This document shows positions 38,029-44,972 of a stretch of 64,000 nt of DNA, piece by piece (position 1 is the first letter of the stretch; each line of letters begins with the position of its first letter). The stretch covers positions 620,001-684,000 of the forward strand of contig NZ_CP095491.1 of the NCBI RefSeq assembly GCF_023028105.1, given 5' to 3'. The DNA comes from Halosolutus gelatinilyticus (GTDB lineage: Archaea > Halobacteriota > Halobacteria > Halobacteriales > Natrialbaceae). The position numbers were made by a program, and so were the translations under genes. The notes under the pieces were generated by a model that was given only the letters and a program-made list of their open reading frames with translations, had not been told where the DNA came from and did not search any database.

Positions 38029-39879
38029 ATGACACAGGTGATATGGATCGTGGCGGCGGTGCTCGTAACGTTCACCGCGGGGTACGTGGGGTACTCGCGG
38101 TACCTCGCCCAGTTCGTCGATCTCGATCCGGATCGGGAGACGCCGGCGCACAAGTACGAGGACGGGCAGGAGTACGTCCCGTCCAAGAAACCGGTGCTGT
38201 TGGGGCATCACTATTCGAGTATCGCGGGCGGAGCACCGATCGTCGGCCCGATCACGGCCGGCGCCATCTGGGGATGGGTTCCCGCCTTGCTGTGGATCGC
38301 GATCGGGAACCCGCTGATGGGAGCGGTCCACGACTTCATCTCGTTGTCGGGCAGCCTGCGCCACGAGGGGAAGTCGATCGGGTACATGATCGGCGAGTAC
38401 GTCGGCGAGCAGGGGAAGAACATGCTGCTGTGGTTCGCGTTCCTGACGATCGTGCTGGTCGTCGCGGTGTTCGCGCTCGTCGTCGCGATCGTGTTCCACG
38501 CCTTCCCGCAGGTGGCGACGGCGTCGTTCATCTACATTCTGCTGGCGCTGGCGTTCGGGGTGTACCTGTACCAGTTCAACGGGCCGTTCATCCTGGGAAC
38601 GGTGGTGTTCGTCGTGGGCGTGTTCGCCGCCGTCCGGGTTGGCATCGAGTACCCGGTCGCCCTGTTCGCCGGCGACTACCCGTCCGGAACGATCGTCCTG
38701 CTCGGCGGCGCCGGCGACTGGGTCCCGGGTGCGGCCCAGCTCGAAGGGCTCGGCGGCGGAAATACCGCGGCGTGGATCCCCGTCGTCCTGGTGTACGCCG
38801 CGATCGCGAGCGCGCTGCCGGTGTGGGTCCTGTTGCAGCCGCGCGACTACCTCTCGTCATTCCTGCTGTACGCCGGCGTCGGCGGGGCGGTCCTCGCGAT
38901 CATCGTCGGAACGTTTTTCGAAACCTCCTCGCAGCCGCTCGTCATCGACGAGAGCCTCGGCGCCTTCGAGGGGTTCTGGGGCGTCGGGGCGGCCGATTAC
39001 GCGCCGTTGTTCCCGCTGCTTTTCATCACGATCGCGTGCGGGACGATCAGCGGGTTCCACTCGCTGGTCTCCTCGGGGACGACCGCCAAGCAGCTCAACA
39101 ACGAGAGCGACGCCCGTCTGATCGGCTACGGCGGCATGCTCGGCGAAGGGCTGCTCGCCGCGGTCGCGCTCTCGACGCTCGCGGTGTGGGGCGCCCCCGA
39201 CGTGGCCGGCGGTATCGGCGCCGCGTTGCCGAACTTCGCCTCGGGCGGCGGCGTCATCCTCACCAGTTTCGGCATCCCGCAGACGGTCGGCGCCGTGTTC
39301 ATGGCGCTGGTCCTCTGTAGCTTCCTGCTGACCTCGACCGACACGGCCGTCCGCCTCGGCCGCTACATGATGGAGGAGATCGTCGGCACGCCCGCCGGGC
39401 GGACCGACACGGGGCTGAACGCCGATATCGGCTCGATCGCCCGCGGTCGCTACACGAACCCGATCGTGCAGGCCGTACCGGCGTACCTGCTGGTCGTCTC
39501 CGGCCAGTGGGTCGTCCTCTGGCAGCTGTTCGGCGGCGCGAACCAGCTGCTCGCCGCGCTCGCGCTGCTGACCGCGACCGTCTGGCTGGCCAACTGGGAC
39601 GACAGCAAGCAGCTCATCTCGACCGGCGTCCCGATGGCGCTGATGGTGACGATCACCGTGCTCGGGCTGTCGTGGCTGGTGTTCTACGAGAACCTCTACG
39701 TCAACCTGCTGAACGGCGGCGCGGAGACGACCGAAGCGATCATCTCCGCGATCGTACAGATGATCATCGGGCTCGTCCTGATCGGGCTGGCACTCGCGCT
39801 CGTCAGACTGGGCTACAACAACATCCGCGAAGTCCGTCGCGGACCCGAAACGCCCGCGGCCGAGCCGGGCGACGACTGA
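38029..39879 (+). CDS. carbon starvation CstA family transporter
   Basis: 616 residues with some 16 hydrophobic segments. CstA hallmarks are present: TPAHKYEDGQEYVPSKKPVL near residues 38-57, LGHHYSSIAGGAPIVGPITA, GNPLMGAVHDFISLSGSLRH and GTISGFHSLVSSGTTAKQLN. E. coli relatives import peptides (CstA) or pyruvate (BtsT). In haloarchaea the substrate is not known; uptake of organic acids or peptides in nutrient-poor conditions is likely. The gene is single, with an AT-rich promoter and an oligo-T stop signal behind it. Confidence 0.94.
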   Translation: MTQVIWIVAAVLVTFTAGYVGYSRYLAQFVDLDPDRETPAHKYEDGQEYVPSKKPVLLGHHYSSIAGGAPIVGPITAGAIWGWVPALLWIAIGNPLMGAVHDFISLSGSLRHEGKSIGYMIGEYVGEQGKNMLLWFAFLTIVLVVAVFALVVAIVFHAFPQVATASFIYILLALAFGVYLYQFNGPFILGTVVFVVGVFAAVRVGIEYPVALFAGDYPSGTIVLLGGAGDWVPGAAQLEGLGGGNTAAWIPVVLVYAAIASALPVWVLLQPRDYLSSFLLYAGVGGAVLAIIVGTFFETSSQPLVIDESLGAFEGFWGVGAADYAPLFPLLFITIACGTISGFHSLVSSGTTAKQLNNESDARLIGYGGMLGEGLLAAVALSTLAVWGAPDVAGGIGAALPNFASGGGVILTSFGIPQTVGAVFMALVLCSFLLTSTDTAVRLGRYMMEEIVGTPAGRTDTGLNADIGSIARGRYTNPIVQAVPAYLLVVSGQWVVLWQLFGGANQLLAALALLTATVWLANWDDSKQLISTGVPMALMVTITVLGLSWLVFYENLYVNLLNGGAETTEAIISAIVQMIIGLVLIGLALALVRLGYNNIREVRRGPETPAAEPGDD

Positions 39880-39996: not shown

Positions 39997-40611
39997 TTAT
40001 CGCCAGAACCGCTTCGCGAACCGCGAGAGGACGCCCTCCTCGGATTTGCTTACGTCGTCCCAGAGGGTGAAGGCCTCGACGACGTCCGCGACTTCGCTGG
40101 CGACGTGGTCCTCGGCGTCGGGAACGACGATCACGAGGTTCACGTCGTAGTGGCCGTAGTAGCCGAACTTCAGCAGCGTCCGATCGCGGAATCCGGAGAC
40201 GTACTCGCGGACGTCGTCGGGGAGCTCGTCGGCGACGAGCACGAAGCTGACGTCCGTACCGAAGTGCTCCTCGTCGGCGACGATCCGCTCGTCGGCGACC
40301 TCGTGACCCAGGGCGACGAGGCGATCGAGTTCCGCGACGGTCGGCCGCGGCTCCCGGCGGGCGAAGAGATACTCCTCGGCCTCGTGGTCGGCGTAGGAGA
40401 GCGCCGGATGGAAGAACTGTTTCTGGGTGGTCACGCGCATCTCGCCGTAGAGGTCCCACCGCTCCCCGTCGAGCCGATAGTCCTTCTCGAGGTCGTAGCT
40501 GTACATCAGCCGGTCGGAGACCCGATCGAGGTACTCGTCCTCCCAGTCGGGGACCGCCTCGCGGATCTCGGCGGGCAGGTCCTCGGGTTTCGGCGCTTCG
40601 CGTCCGCTCAT
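39997..40611 (-). CDS. conserved haloarchaeal protein, unknown
   Basis: 204 residues, overlapping the cupin gene by 4 nt (ATGA). It is soluble, with long N-terminal helices (PEDLPAEIREAVPDWEDEYL, LMYSYDLEKDYRLDG) and an alpha/beta C-terminal part (HFGTDVSFVLVADELPDDVR, HYDVNLVIVVPDAEDHVASE). The end, FAKRFWR, is basic. The frame continues upstream but is Arg-rich there. I do not recognise the family; coupling to a cupin suggests a shared task, perhaps on a small metabolite. Confidence 0.78.
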   Translation of the reverse strand: MSGREAPKPEDLPAEIREAVPDWEDEYLDRVSDRLMYSYDLEKDYRLDGERWDLYGEMRVTTQKQFFHPALSYADHEAEEYLFARREPRPTVAELDRLVALGHEVADERIVADEEHFGTDVSFVLVADELPDDVREYVSGFRDRTLLKFGYYGHYDVNLVIVVPDAEDHVASEVADVVEAFTLWDDVSKSEEGVLSRFAKRFWR

Positions 40612-42297: not shown

Positions 42298-43578
42298 TCA
42301 CGGCCCGCGAACGACCGTCTCGTCGCCCTGCTCGTCGGGGAACGGTCCGTCGCTCGAGCCGGCGTCTCCGTCGCCGGACCACTCCTCGTCCGTCACGAGC
42401 GCCTCTCGGAGGCGCTCTCGGAGCGCCGATTCGTCGTACTCCGTCCCGATGAAGACGAGTTCGGTCAGCCGATCGCCGTGCTCGTCGTTCCACTCGAGGT
42501 TCGGCCGGTTCGACCGGTACATGTCGCGTTCGATCTCGGGCAGGCTCGCGATCCACGGCCCCTTCGCGGCGGCTCTGATGGACGGCCCGGCCTGCGCGAT
42601 CGCGACGCGCATTTCGTTACCCGCGAGCCACGCGGTTCCCTTGGCGCGGACGATTTCGGACGGGAGATCGCGGAGAAACGACGCGAACCGATCGGGGTGG
42701 AACGGCCGCCGGCGGCGGAAGACGAACGAGGTGACGCCGTAGACTTCGTCGGGATGGCGGTGGTCGTGCTCGTCGTGATCGTGGTCGTCGTGGTCATGGC
42801 GATCGCGGTGGCCGTGATCGCCGTCTCCGCGCCCGCCCGTATCGGCGTGACCGTGGCCGTTATCCTCCTCCAGCGCGCGTTTCCACCCCGGCAGGTCGGC
42901 GAGTCGGTCGGCGTCGAACCGATCGCGGCCGAGCAGTCGATCGGGGTCGATCGCCGAGAACTCCGTCCGGACGGTCTCGGCGTCGGGCTGGAGCGCCCGG
43001 ACAAGTTCTTCGGCCTCCGCGAGTTGGGCTTCGCTGCACAGGTCCGCCTTGTTGAGCAGGACGACGTTCGACACCTCGACCTGTTCGACGAGCAGGTCGG
43101 AGAGGGGCCGATCGGCCTCGTCGCCGCGCCGTTCCGGGATCTCCTCGCCGGCGAAGGACTCCAGGAACGCGGGCGTGTCGAGGACGGTCACGAGCGTGTC
43201 GACATCGTACCGGGCGGCGACGCGGGATTTCGTCGTGAACAGCCGCGCGACGGGCGCGGGCTCGGAGATGCCCGAGGACTCGACGACGAGGTGGTCGAAC
43301 GCCCGATCGCGAGCCAGCCTGACCACGGCCGTTTCGAGGTCGTCCTGCAGTTCACAGCAGATGCAGCCGTTCGAGAGCTCCGCGACGCCGTCGTCGAGTT
43401 CCAGTTCGGAGCCCTCGGCGACGAGTTCCGCGTCGACGTTCACCTCGCCCATGTCGTTGACGAGGACGGCGAGGGTTCGATCGCCGGCGTTCGAGAGCAG
43501 GTGGTTGAGCAGCGTCGTCTTGCCGGCGCCCAGGCTTCCGGAGAGGATGGTCACCGGGATGGTCCCGTCGGCGTTCAT
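42298..43578 (-). CDS. CobW/COG0523 GTPase with histidine-rich linker
   Basis: 426 residues from ATG 43576-43578. G1 loop GSLGAGKTTLLNHLL (14-28), metal-relay motif GCICC with Cys72, Cys74 and Cys75, G4 NKAD at 176-179. Residues 241-275 contain eleven histidines among Asp and Gly, a metal sponge between the GTPase and the CobW_C domain (TSFVFRRRRPFHPDRFASFL). COG0523 proteins deliver zinc or cobalt to client enzymes; the His-rich loop favours zinc or nickel. No corrin genes adjoin, so a zinc chaperone is likelier than cobalamin work. The C-terminal 40 residues are an acidic tail. Confidence 0.93.
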   Translation of the reverse strand: MNADGTIPVTILSGSLGAGKTTLLNHLLSNAGDRTLAVLVNDMGEVNVDAELVAEGSELELDDGVAELSNGCICCELQDDLETAVVRLARDRAFDHLVVESSGISEPAPVARLFTTKSRVAARYDVDTLVTVLDTPAFLESFAGEEIPERRGDEADRPLSDLLVEQVEVSNVVLLNKADLCSEAQLAEAEELVRALQPDAETVRTEFSAIDPDRLLGRDRFDADRLADLPGWKRALEEDNGHGHADTGGRGDGDHGHRDRHDHDDHDHDEHDHRHPDEVYGVTSFVFRRRRPFHPDRFASFLRDLPSEIVRAKGTAWLAGNEMRVAIAQAGPSIRAAAKGPWIASLPEIERDMYRSNRPNLEWNDEHGDRLTELVFIGTEYDESALRERLREALVTDEEWSGDGDAGSSDGPFPDEQGDETVVRGP

Positions 43579-43669: not shown

Positions 43670-43677
43670 CTTTTACC
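43670..43677 (+). promoter_or_regulatory. TATA-like box of the 43700 operon
   Basis: CTTTTACC centred 26 nt before ATG 43700, in the 121-nt divergent gap with the CobW gene. Confidence 0.45.
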
Positions 43678-43699: not shown

Positions 43700-43996
43700 A
43701 TGGAACTGGCCGATCGGATCGAGGCGTTCCGCCGAACGCTTTCGGAGTGGCTCAGGGGGCTCTATCACGGCATGATCTCGCATCCGGCCTACGAGAAGAT
43801 CGAAAAGGAAGCCGAGGACGCCGAGGACGCGTTCCTGCTCGCGTGTTTCCCGGACGCGTTCGGAATCCCCTCGCCCGTGTCGTACTACACGGCCGAACTG
43901 CTGCCGTACCTCGAAGACGAGTTCGAGGCCTGGGAGCGGCGACTGTGGGATCGCGGCACCTACCTCGAACGAAAGGGTCAGCAGTACCACTTCTGA
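43700..43996 (+). CDS. small helical protein coupled to ArsA/Get3
   Basis: 98 residues, ending one base before the Get3-like gene begins. Predominantly helical and rich in Glu and aromatics: LSEWLRGLYHGMISHPAYEK, EKEAEDAEDAFLLACFPDAF, YYTAELLPYLEDEFEAWERR. No membrane segment and no motif I recognise. Its tight linkage to the ATPase suggests a subunit, cofactor or client-binding partner. This is inference from gene order alone. Confidence 0.82.
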   Translation: MELADRIEAFRRTLSEWLRGLYHGMISHPAYEKIEKEAEDAEDAFLLACFPDAFGIPSPVSYYTAELLPYLEDEFEAWERRLWDRGTYLERKGQQYHF

Positions 43997-43997
43997 C

Positions 43998-44972
43998 ATG
44001 GAACCCTTCGTCTTCTTCGGCGGCAAGGGCGGCGTCGGCAAGACCACCGTCTCGTGTGCCTACGGACTCCGCTGCGCCCGCGACGGTCACCGGACGCTCG
44101 TCGTCTCGACCGACCCCGCCCACTCCGTCACCGACGTGTTCGATCAACCGTTCGACGACACCCCCGAGCCGGTCGCGGGAATCGATCGGCTCGACGCGAT
44201 GCAACTCGATCCCGAGGACGAGGTCACGCGCCACTTAGACGAAATCCGCCAGGACCTCTCCGAACAGGTTTCGGCGGCGATGGTCAACGAGATCAACCGC
44301 CAGCTCGAGATGGCCCACGGTACGCCTGGCGCCTACGAGTCGGCCCTGTTCGATCGGTTCGTCGACGTGATGCGCAACTCGGAGTCGTACGATCGGGTCG
44401 TCTTCGACACCGCGCCCTCCGGAAGCACGCTGCGCCTGCTCGGCCTCCCCGACCTGCTCGAAAGCTGGATCGACCGCCTGATGTACAAGCGCCGGACCAG
44501 CATCGACCTCTTCGAGAAGGCCGCGATCGGAAACAACGAACCCCGGCGCGTCATGGAGGGCGACCCCGTCCTCGCGCGTCTCGAAGAGCGCAAGGAGTTC
44601 TTCGACTTCGCCGGCAAGGCGCTCCAGGACGACGCCGCCTTCTTCATCGTCCTGAACCCCGACGAACTCTCGCTGAACGAGACCGAGCGGTCGATCGCCG
44701 ACCTCCGGGAGAAGGAGTTCGCCGTCCGCGGCCTCGTCGCCAACAAACTCACCCCCTCGCCTGATCCCGACGAGAACGGCCGCGGCGCGCGCTACCTCCG
44801 TGACCGGGTCGAGACCGAACGGGCGCATCTCGAAACCATCCGCGAGGAGTTCGACCCGCCGCTGGTGGCCGAGATCGGCTGGCGGGTCGCTGAGGTCAAG
44901 GGCGATCTCCTGTCGGACGTCGCCGACGAACTCGACATCGAGACGAGCGTCGAAGCCCCAACGCACGTCTGA
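43998..44972 (+). CDS. ArsA/Get3 family ATPase
   Basis: 324 residues. Deviant Walker A FFGGKGGVGKTTVSCAYG at 6-23, switch I STDPAHSVTDVF, A-loop-like FDTAPSGSTLRLLGLPDLLE and the NKL base motif in RGLVANKLTP. A single copy, like eukaryotic Get3 (TRC40), which targets tail-anchored proteins; bacterial-type arsenite pumps use a double ArsA with ArsB and ArsD, absent here. In Get3 the A-loop reads DTAPTGHTLR; here Ser replaces His. The archaeal role is probably membrane-protein targeting or chaperoning. Co-transcribed with the small helical protein. Confidence 0.93.
   Translation: MEPFVFFGGKGGVGKTTVSCAYGLRCARDGHRTLVVSTDPAHSVTDVFDQPFDDTPEPVAGIDRLDAMQLDPEDEVTRHLDEIRQDLSEQVSAAMVNEINRQLEMAHGTPGAYESALFDRFVDVMRNSESYDRVVFDTAPSGSTLRLLGLPDLLESWIDRLMYKRRTSIDLFEKAAIGNNEPRRVMEGDPVLARLEERKEFFDFAGKALQDDAAFFIVLNPDELSLNETERSIADLREKEFAVRGLVANKLTPSPDPDENGRGARYLRDRVETERAHLETIREEFDPPLVAEIGWRVAEVKGDLLSDVADELDIETSVEAPTHV

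Follow-up and report, generated by a model that had tools for sequence, protein, structure and literature searches.

The two adjacent genes at positions 43,700 to 44,972 of the window (the whole stretch of 64,000 nucleotides of Halosolutus gelatinilyticus DNA that was analysed) probably code for the accessory components of a CstA uptake system; the small protein would link the ATPase to the transporter. A module of this kind was first described in 2010; it is real and strongly conserved. The features of the window on which the description is based are the following.

38029-39879, + strand: CstA transporter gene, 616 aa (PF02554, E 1.2e-128, 430.7 bits)
43671-43675, + strand: promoter-like box TTTTA, 25-29 nt 5' of the ATG of the small gene
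43700-43996, + strand: small gene, CstX-like and cory-CC-star-related, 98 aa (open reading frame, ATG start)
43982-43993, + strand: codons of the QYHF tail of the small gene (from the sequence)
43998-44972, + strand: ArsA/Get3-family ATPase gene of the CstA-linked type, single-domain, without CxxC, 324 aa (open reading frame, ATG start)
44022-44045, + strand: P-loop GKGGVGKT of the ATPase (from the sequence; kept in the alignment of relatives)
44406-44429, + strand: switch-II motif DTAPSGST of the ATPase (from the sequence; DTAPTGHT in the bacterial CstA-linked ATPases)

Reading of the open reading frames places the ATPase gene (43998-44972) 1 nt behind the small gene (43700-43996) on the same strand, as an earlier note on this DNA had described. 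That note had missed the CstA gene at 38029-39879 in the same window, which lies 3.8 kb upstream of the small gene and on the strand of the pair. Because this gap of 3.8 kb contains genes of the opposite strand, CstA, the small gene and the ATPase gene are not one transcript in the window. The distance of the TTTTA box from the ATG would suit a nearly leaderless transcript of the small gene, which the sequence suggests as a putative one; a TTTT is similarly placed 5' of the small gene in 17 of 20 relatives.

The small protein is acidic and aromatic-rich, with 20 D/E and 16 F/W/Y in 98 residues, and none of its 19-residue windows has transmembrane hydrophobicity (highest Kyte-Doolittle mean, 1.11; 0.94-1.34 in five relatives). 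The description of a Glu- and aromatic-rich protein without a membrane helix, made earlier from the sequence, is borne out by these values. The NCBIfam family NF041419 (cory-CC-star protein) matches residues 20-82 with E 5.1e-15 and 55.2 bits, below the 80 bits set as curated cut-off; the scores of three bacterial homologues are 125-135 bits. No Pfam family scored above its cut-off, and PF04328 gave no match to the protein at E <= 0.1, nor to the genome. A match to cytochrome b559 (PF00284) was rejected, with 15 bits against a cut-off of 25. The core D-F...GIPxPxxYYTxELxPY is common to the bacterial and haloarchaeal small proteins. The structure model is mainly helical (helices 3-26, 29-37, 41-49 and 59-85) and of modest confidence (pLDDT 70.8, below 50 for residues 91-98), and the best match in a PDB search with it had E 0.93, so no conclusion on the fold is drawn.

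An arrangement of this kind is on record also for an archaeal case, Nph1, the prefix of which we take to stand for the haloarchaeon Natronomonas pharaonis. Castillo & Saier 2010 (PMC2963123) count 26 instances in which CstA is accompanied by an ArsA homologue, 24 of them also with the small CstX, and place Nph1 beside cstA and cstX; in their proposal CstA is energised by the ArsA homologue, and CstX is the linker. Judged by size and operon position, the small protein of the window is very probably this CstX, and CstX and cory-CC-star are likewise equated here by size and operon position, not by the sequences of the 2010 paper. The earlier note recognised no described partner of this kind; CstX had already been described in PMC2963123. 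The cstA-cstX-arsA operons, as presented there, resemble the pair of the window in their single-domain ArsA homologue of about 330 aa (324 aa in the window), in a small protein of about 90 aa beside the ATPase (98 aa here) with CstA in the cluster, and in the lack of ars genes, judged here on pump genes only. They differ in that CstA adjoins in those operons and lies about 4 kb off in the clade of the window. They may differ also in that CstX carries the descriptive label of a single-TMS protein in the 2010 paper, whereas the hydropathy of the small protein of the window (peak 1.11) argues against such a stretch. With the cory-CC-star family (NF041419) the small protein shares the homologous core (residues 20-82) and the position before an ArsA-family ATPase; it differs in its score (55.2 bits against 80) and in its His-Phe end instead of Cys-Cys. 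The literature search found no paper on cory-CC-star by name, only the 2010 paper (PMC2963123) on CstX with ArsA, and nothing further on the topic for CstA with ArsA.

Inheritance of the three genes is joint. Of the order, 293 genomes were searched: 221 contain the small gene, 222 the ATPase (called at E <= 1e-60) and 224 CstA. The sets are nested: every genome with the small gene has both of the other genes, none has the ATPase without CstA, and presence or absence of the small gene and the ATPase is concordant in 292. The exceptions are G096, a genome 61% complete that has the ATPase and CstA without a match to the small gene, and G010 and G268, which have CstA alone; the CstA locus of G010 was read, and neither the small gene nor the ATPase adjoins it. 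Nine genera contain both genomes with all three genes and genomes with none, which shows that the small gene, the ATPase and CstA come and go together. Fisher p values take no account of relatedness between the genomes and carry no weight in this conclusion.

Gene order is equally steady. The small gene adjoins the ATPase in 135 of 135 genomes among the matches listed (of about 220), with a gap of -1 to 142 nt that is within 20 nt in 105 of these 135. CstA is found within 6 kb of the pair in all 104 genomes among the matches listed (again of about 220). In 85 of them it follows the ATPase directly (<= 500 nt), and in 3 it lies 1.5-1.7 kb downstream. In the other 16 it is upstream, on the same strand, at a distance of 4.2-5.6 kb counted from where the Pfam match stops, short of the end of the CstA gene. 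This third layout is that of the window itself. Starting from CstA, the pair adjoins it in 29 of 30 CstA loci, a biased set made up of the 30 best CstA scores. The earlier note had taken the small protein for a partner of the ATPase and had proposed a gene-neighbourhood survey as a check. The pairing (135/135 listed, 292/293 concordant) holds far beyond one species, and the survey found the linkage in bacteria as well.

The bacterial cases keep the same order of genes. Three plasmid records, of Cytobacillus, Pseudochrobactrum and Paracoccus, have the order CstA, cory-CC-star, ArsA-family ATPase; they were read out of six matched and had been found by weak tblastn matches (E 0.01-0.07). In the best 80 of 525 bacterial loci, all close to the Cytobacillus query and with other phyla thinly sampled, the ATPase gene comes directly after the small gene in 80 of 80. 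CstA belongs to 78 of these loci and stands no more than 600 nt upstream in 74. The two loci without CstA, L125 and L171, stop at contig ends (193 and 735 nt). Titles of what we take to be Bacillus-like genera are carried by 78 of the 80; the loci L155 (Pseudomonas) and L172 (Chryseobacterium) are perhaps mislabelled. A search of 294 genomes of the phylum gave seven outside the order with a cory match, and the trio was present in six of the seven stretches fetched. The seventh, locus L075, has a weak NF041419 match (E 9.8e-4) and no cory, ATPase or CstA, and was treated as a false match. Among viral contigs the Paracoccus query detected a single weak relative (L213, 30% identity, E 5e-7), on a contig without CstA, ATPase or cory at E <= 1e-3, and no relative with the small protein of the window as query. 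Of the control genomes, Haloferax volcanii matches both CstA and cory (NF041419), and Synechococcus elongatus matches NF041419 at E <= 0.1, not at 0.001.

In the proposed uptake system, CstA would be the many-helix transporter, for a substrate that in haloarchaea is putative, and the ATPase would be a Get3-fold protein, probably acting as a homodimer. The small protein would be a helical linker that binds both, and we infer a physical complex in which the ATP state of the ATPase gates, energises or assembles CstA via the small protein, the invariant C-terminal tail being the likeliest docking element. The Get3 fold and the intact P-loop of the ATPase count in favour.

Comparison with Escherichia coli bears on this reading from both sides. 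E. coli CstA imports pyruvate with protons. Both CstA and YbdD are reported to be needed for pyruvate uptake, which falls to 20% on deletion of ybdD (Hwang 2018, PMC5847655). YbdD/YjiX (PF04328), the partner of CstA in E. coli, is like the small protein in being small, in having no hydrophobic stretch and in adjoining CstA, and it ends in RCC, as do the bacterial cory proteins. It differs in its surroundings, as the annotation of E. coli shows no ArsA/Get3-family ATPase next to ybdD or cstA. A common origin of CstX and YbdD was considered and is not shown by profile comparison (hhalign of YbdD against the whole cory set, probability 0.46%; against the CC-bearing set, 16% over 13 C-terminal columns), only the features GxPxxxY and RCC being shared. 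The YbdD family (PF04328) was found in none of 54 genomes, namely 30 genomes of the bacterial loci and 24 haloarchaea, of which 22 have the small gene and the other two are G010 and G268; this is as expected if the small protein takes the place of YbdD and the two are alternative partners. Counting against the module are G010 and G268, which retain CstA without the pair and without YbdD, the score of the small protein below the NF041419 cut-off together with its lack of CC, the separate transcription of CstA and the pair in the window, and the weak support of the tree grouping (73/40, see below).

In the case in which transport runs on the ion gradient, the ATPase could be a chaperone or switch driven by nucleotides, with the task of loading the small protein onto CstA or of inserting or stabilising CstA. 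This is a narrower version of the CstA module, the odds of the two overlap, and we give it a little less than an even chance. Get3-type ATPases are mostly handling factors, the ATPase has the Get3 fold, and the gene linkage expected is identical to that of the module as a whole. Dependence of E. coli CstA on the proton gradient is reported in PMC7730263, and as no such ATPase is annotated beside the E. coli gene, CstA can transport without being coupled to ATP. CstA is present in seven control genomes, and four of these (B. subtilis, Bacteroides ihuae, L. lactis and M. acetivorans) match neither YbdD nor cory. These E. coli data and controls make regulation or assembly a serious rival. Against it, PMC2963123 holds that ArsA, a member of this superfamily, energises a transporter.

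The tail of the small protein and switch II of the ATPase vary in parallel. All 85 haloarchaeal small proteins end in [YF]HF, with His97 and Phe98 invariant in the 63 distinct ones, and a C-terminal Cys-Cys is present in 0 of 85 versus 80 of 80 small proteins of the bacterial loci; the small proteins of the three bacterial plasmids also end in CC. The His of DTAPTGHT is kept in 80 of 80 bacterial ATPases and found in none of 65 haloarchaeal CstA-linked ones, the 85 and 65 haloarchaeal sequences coming from three overlapping sets of loci. The 65 comprise 26 DTSPTGST, 20 DTSPTGGT, 9 DTAPSGST, 4 DTAPTGGT, 3 DTAPTGST and one each of DTAPTGAT, DTSPTGAT and DTAPTGQT. Five genomes of archaea that belong to the phylum and lie outside the order were read, and both the CC tail and the switch-II His are lacking in them: G301 has the tail LEQHTL with DTAPTGQT, G506, G450 and G426 have EFFE[IL] with DMPPTGLT, and G498 has LFDIG with DTPPTGLT. 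As all CxxC-Get3 and ArsA rows of the tree have DTAPTGHT, loss of the His is special to the archaeal CstA-linked ATPases among the rows seen. In ArsA this His is a metalloid ligand. The change from the bacterial CC to an invariant His-Phe in haloarchaea, whose ATPases lose the switch-II His, is unreported in the literature on cory-CC-star, CstX, and CstA with ArsA. A speculative explanation, which we regard as improbable, is that the tail, as a plug-in element, contacts the ATPase close to switch II and passes the ATP state of the enzyme on to CstA, so that a symporter is gated or driven by ATP, tail and switch having changed together. Bacteria would then pair the Cys-Cys tail with DTAPTGHT and haloarchaea the His-Phe tail with a His-less ATPase, and the joint change would perhaps stem from a shared metal or thiol site. 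The association comes from few lineages, about four.

Assignment of the ATPase to the ArsA/Get3 family, as made from the sequence earlier, agrees with the searches (Pfam ArsA_ATPase, 224.5 bits; TIGR00345, 234.7 bits versus a cut-off of 135). The protein has one ATPase domain and one P-loop in 324 aa. Its model (pLDDT 85.0) has as best PDB match the archaeal TRC40 3zq6 (Z 29.1, rmsd 2.7, 273 residues aligned), followed by other Get3 proteins, ArsA (Z about 24) and the mycobacterial Get3-like A/B (6bs3, Z 23.9). Within the matches listed, one stop codon occurs inside the ATPase match of eight genomes (G272, G290, G228, G257, G004, G200, G022 and G204), where either a shorter protein may end or the gene may truly be broken.

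The earlier note had called this Get3-like ATPase single-copy. A second gene of the ArsA/Get3 family is present in the genome at C1:281097-282284; it encodes 396 aa and carries the CxxC motif CEFC. The CxxC motif of canonical archaeal Get3 is a zinc site. It is absent from the ATPase of the window, and after residue 200 it occurs in 0 of 150 ATPases of the window type (65 haloarchaeal, 80 of the bacterial loci and 5 other), as opposed to 12 of 12 rows of the other Get3 type. A relative of the 396-aa protein was found in 39 of 40 haloarchaea, including 28 of the 29 without the pair, at E <= 1e-20, a threshold that keeps the window ATPase out in G000; the sole miss, G003, is one of these 29, and for 12 of the 39 the presence of CxxC was read from the sequence. 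On these counts the CxxC type is a widespread haloarchaeal gene and the ATPase of the window is something else. A tree of 46 rows, which took 8 of 16 further haloarchaeal ATPases, the other eight being incomplete in their loci, groups the CxxC-Get3 rows (n=12) at 100/100 with the window ATPase outside, and the ArsA rows (n=7) at 100/100. The 27 CstA-linked ATPases stand on one side of a weakly supported branch (73/40), and long branches were flagged.

It is against this background that the remaining claim of the earlier note has to be seen, according to which the ATPase could be the Get3 that places tail-anchored proteins in archaea, with the small protein as its candidate loader or client adaptor. 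Fold, P-loop and single domain are common to archaeal and eukaryotic Get3 (TRC40) and the ATPase of the window, 3zq6 is its best structural match at Z 29.1, ahead of ArsA at about 24, and the pairing with the small gene is stable. Following switch II, the hydropathy peak of the haloarchaeal CstA-linked ATPases (0.58) is like that of CxxC-Get3 (0.62), although the same segment is poorer in Met and Phe (1.9 per 27 residues versus 4.3; 0.4 in the bacterial CstA-linked ATPases). As the peaks are alike, this segment is weak evidence on client binding; the motif was located in three of six ArsA halves for the comparison. The window ATPase differs from Get3 further in its altered switch II, in its other neighbours and in having no CxxC, with a separate gene of the CxxC type in 39 of 40 haloarchaea. 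Together with its place apart from the CxxC-Get3 group in the tree and the inheritance of the pair jointly with CstA, this makes a role in tail-anchored-protein targeting very unlikely.

An arsenical pump ATPase with an ArsD-like helper, for which the Pfam match to ArsA_ATPase speaks, is scarcely credible: ArsA belongs to the same superfamily and its role in powering a transporter is like the one proposed here, but it has two ATPase halves and stands in an arsenical pump operon, whereas the ATPase of the window has one domain, no switch-II His, no pump gene near and a place outside the ArsA group of the tree. A search of the genome for ArsB (PF02040) found none, and the one SBF-family (Acr3-type) match, at C1:946854, lies about 263 kb beyond the window, in keeping with the earlier statement that the vicinity has no arsenite pump.

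Studies of tail-anchored proteins should not take the Get3-like ATPase of the window for 'the' Get3 of haloarchaea, as these have a separate CxxC gene. No experimental follow-up of the 2010 proposal that the ATPase helps CstA was found in the literature on CstX and on CstA with ArsA. The proposal can now be tested in the genetic model Haloferax volcanii, which has both CstA and cory matches, and whose cstA is reported in PMC6104027 to be controlled by a ribosome-associated RNA.

Further observations concern three genes of the - strand between CstA and the small gene. A CobW-family GTPase gene with a His-rich stretch (42298-43578) is divergent from the small gene; its nearest model is the ZigA zinc metallochaperone, with 335.7 bits, below the cut-off of 600. 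The stop codon of a cupin-domain gene (PF07883, 40608-40985) overlaps the start of the gene of a 204-aa protein (39997-40611), which faces CstA and has no Pfam or NCBIfam match. Locus L081 of genome G069, which has four CstA matches, contains a CstA copy with a 204-aa neighbour and neither the small gene nor the ATPase in the flank examined. Of 30 haloarchaeal CstA loci, 29 have a relative of the 204-aa protein of the window beside CstA, as does the CstA-only locus L211, and the gene of this protein is possibly a further CstA-linked gene of haloarchaea.
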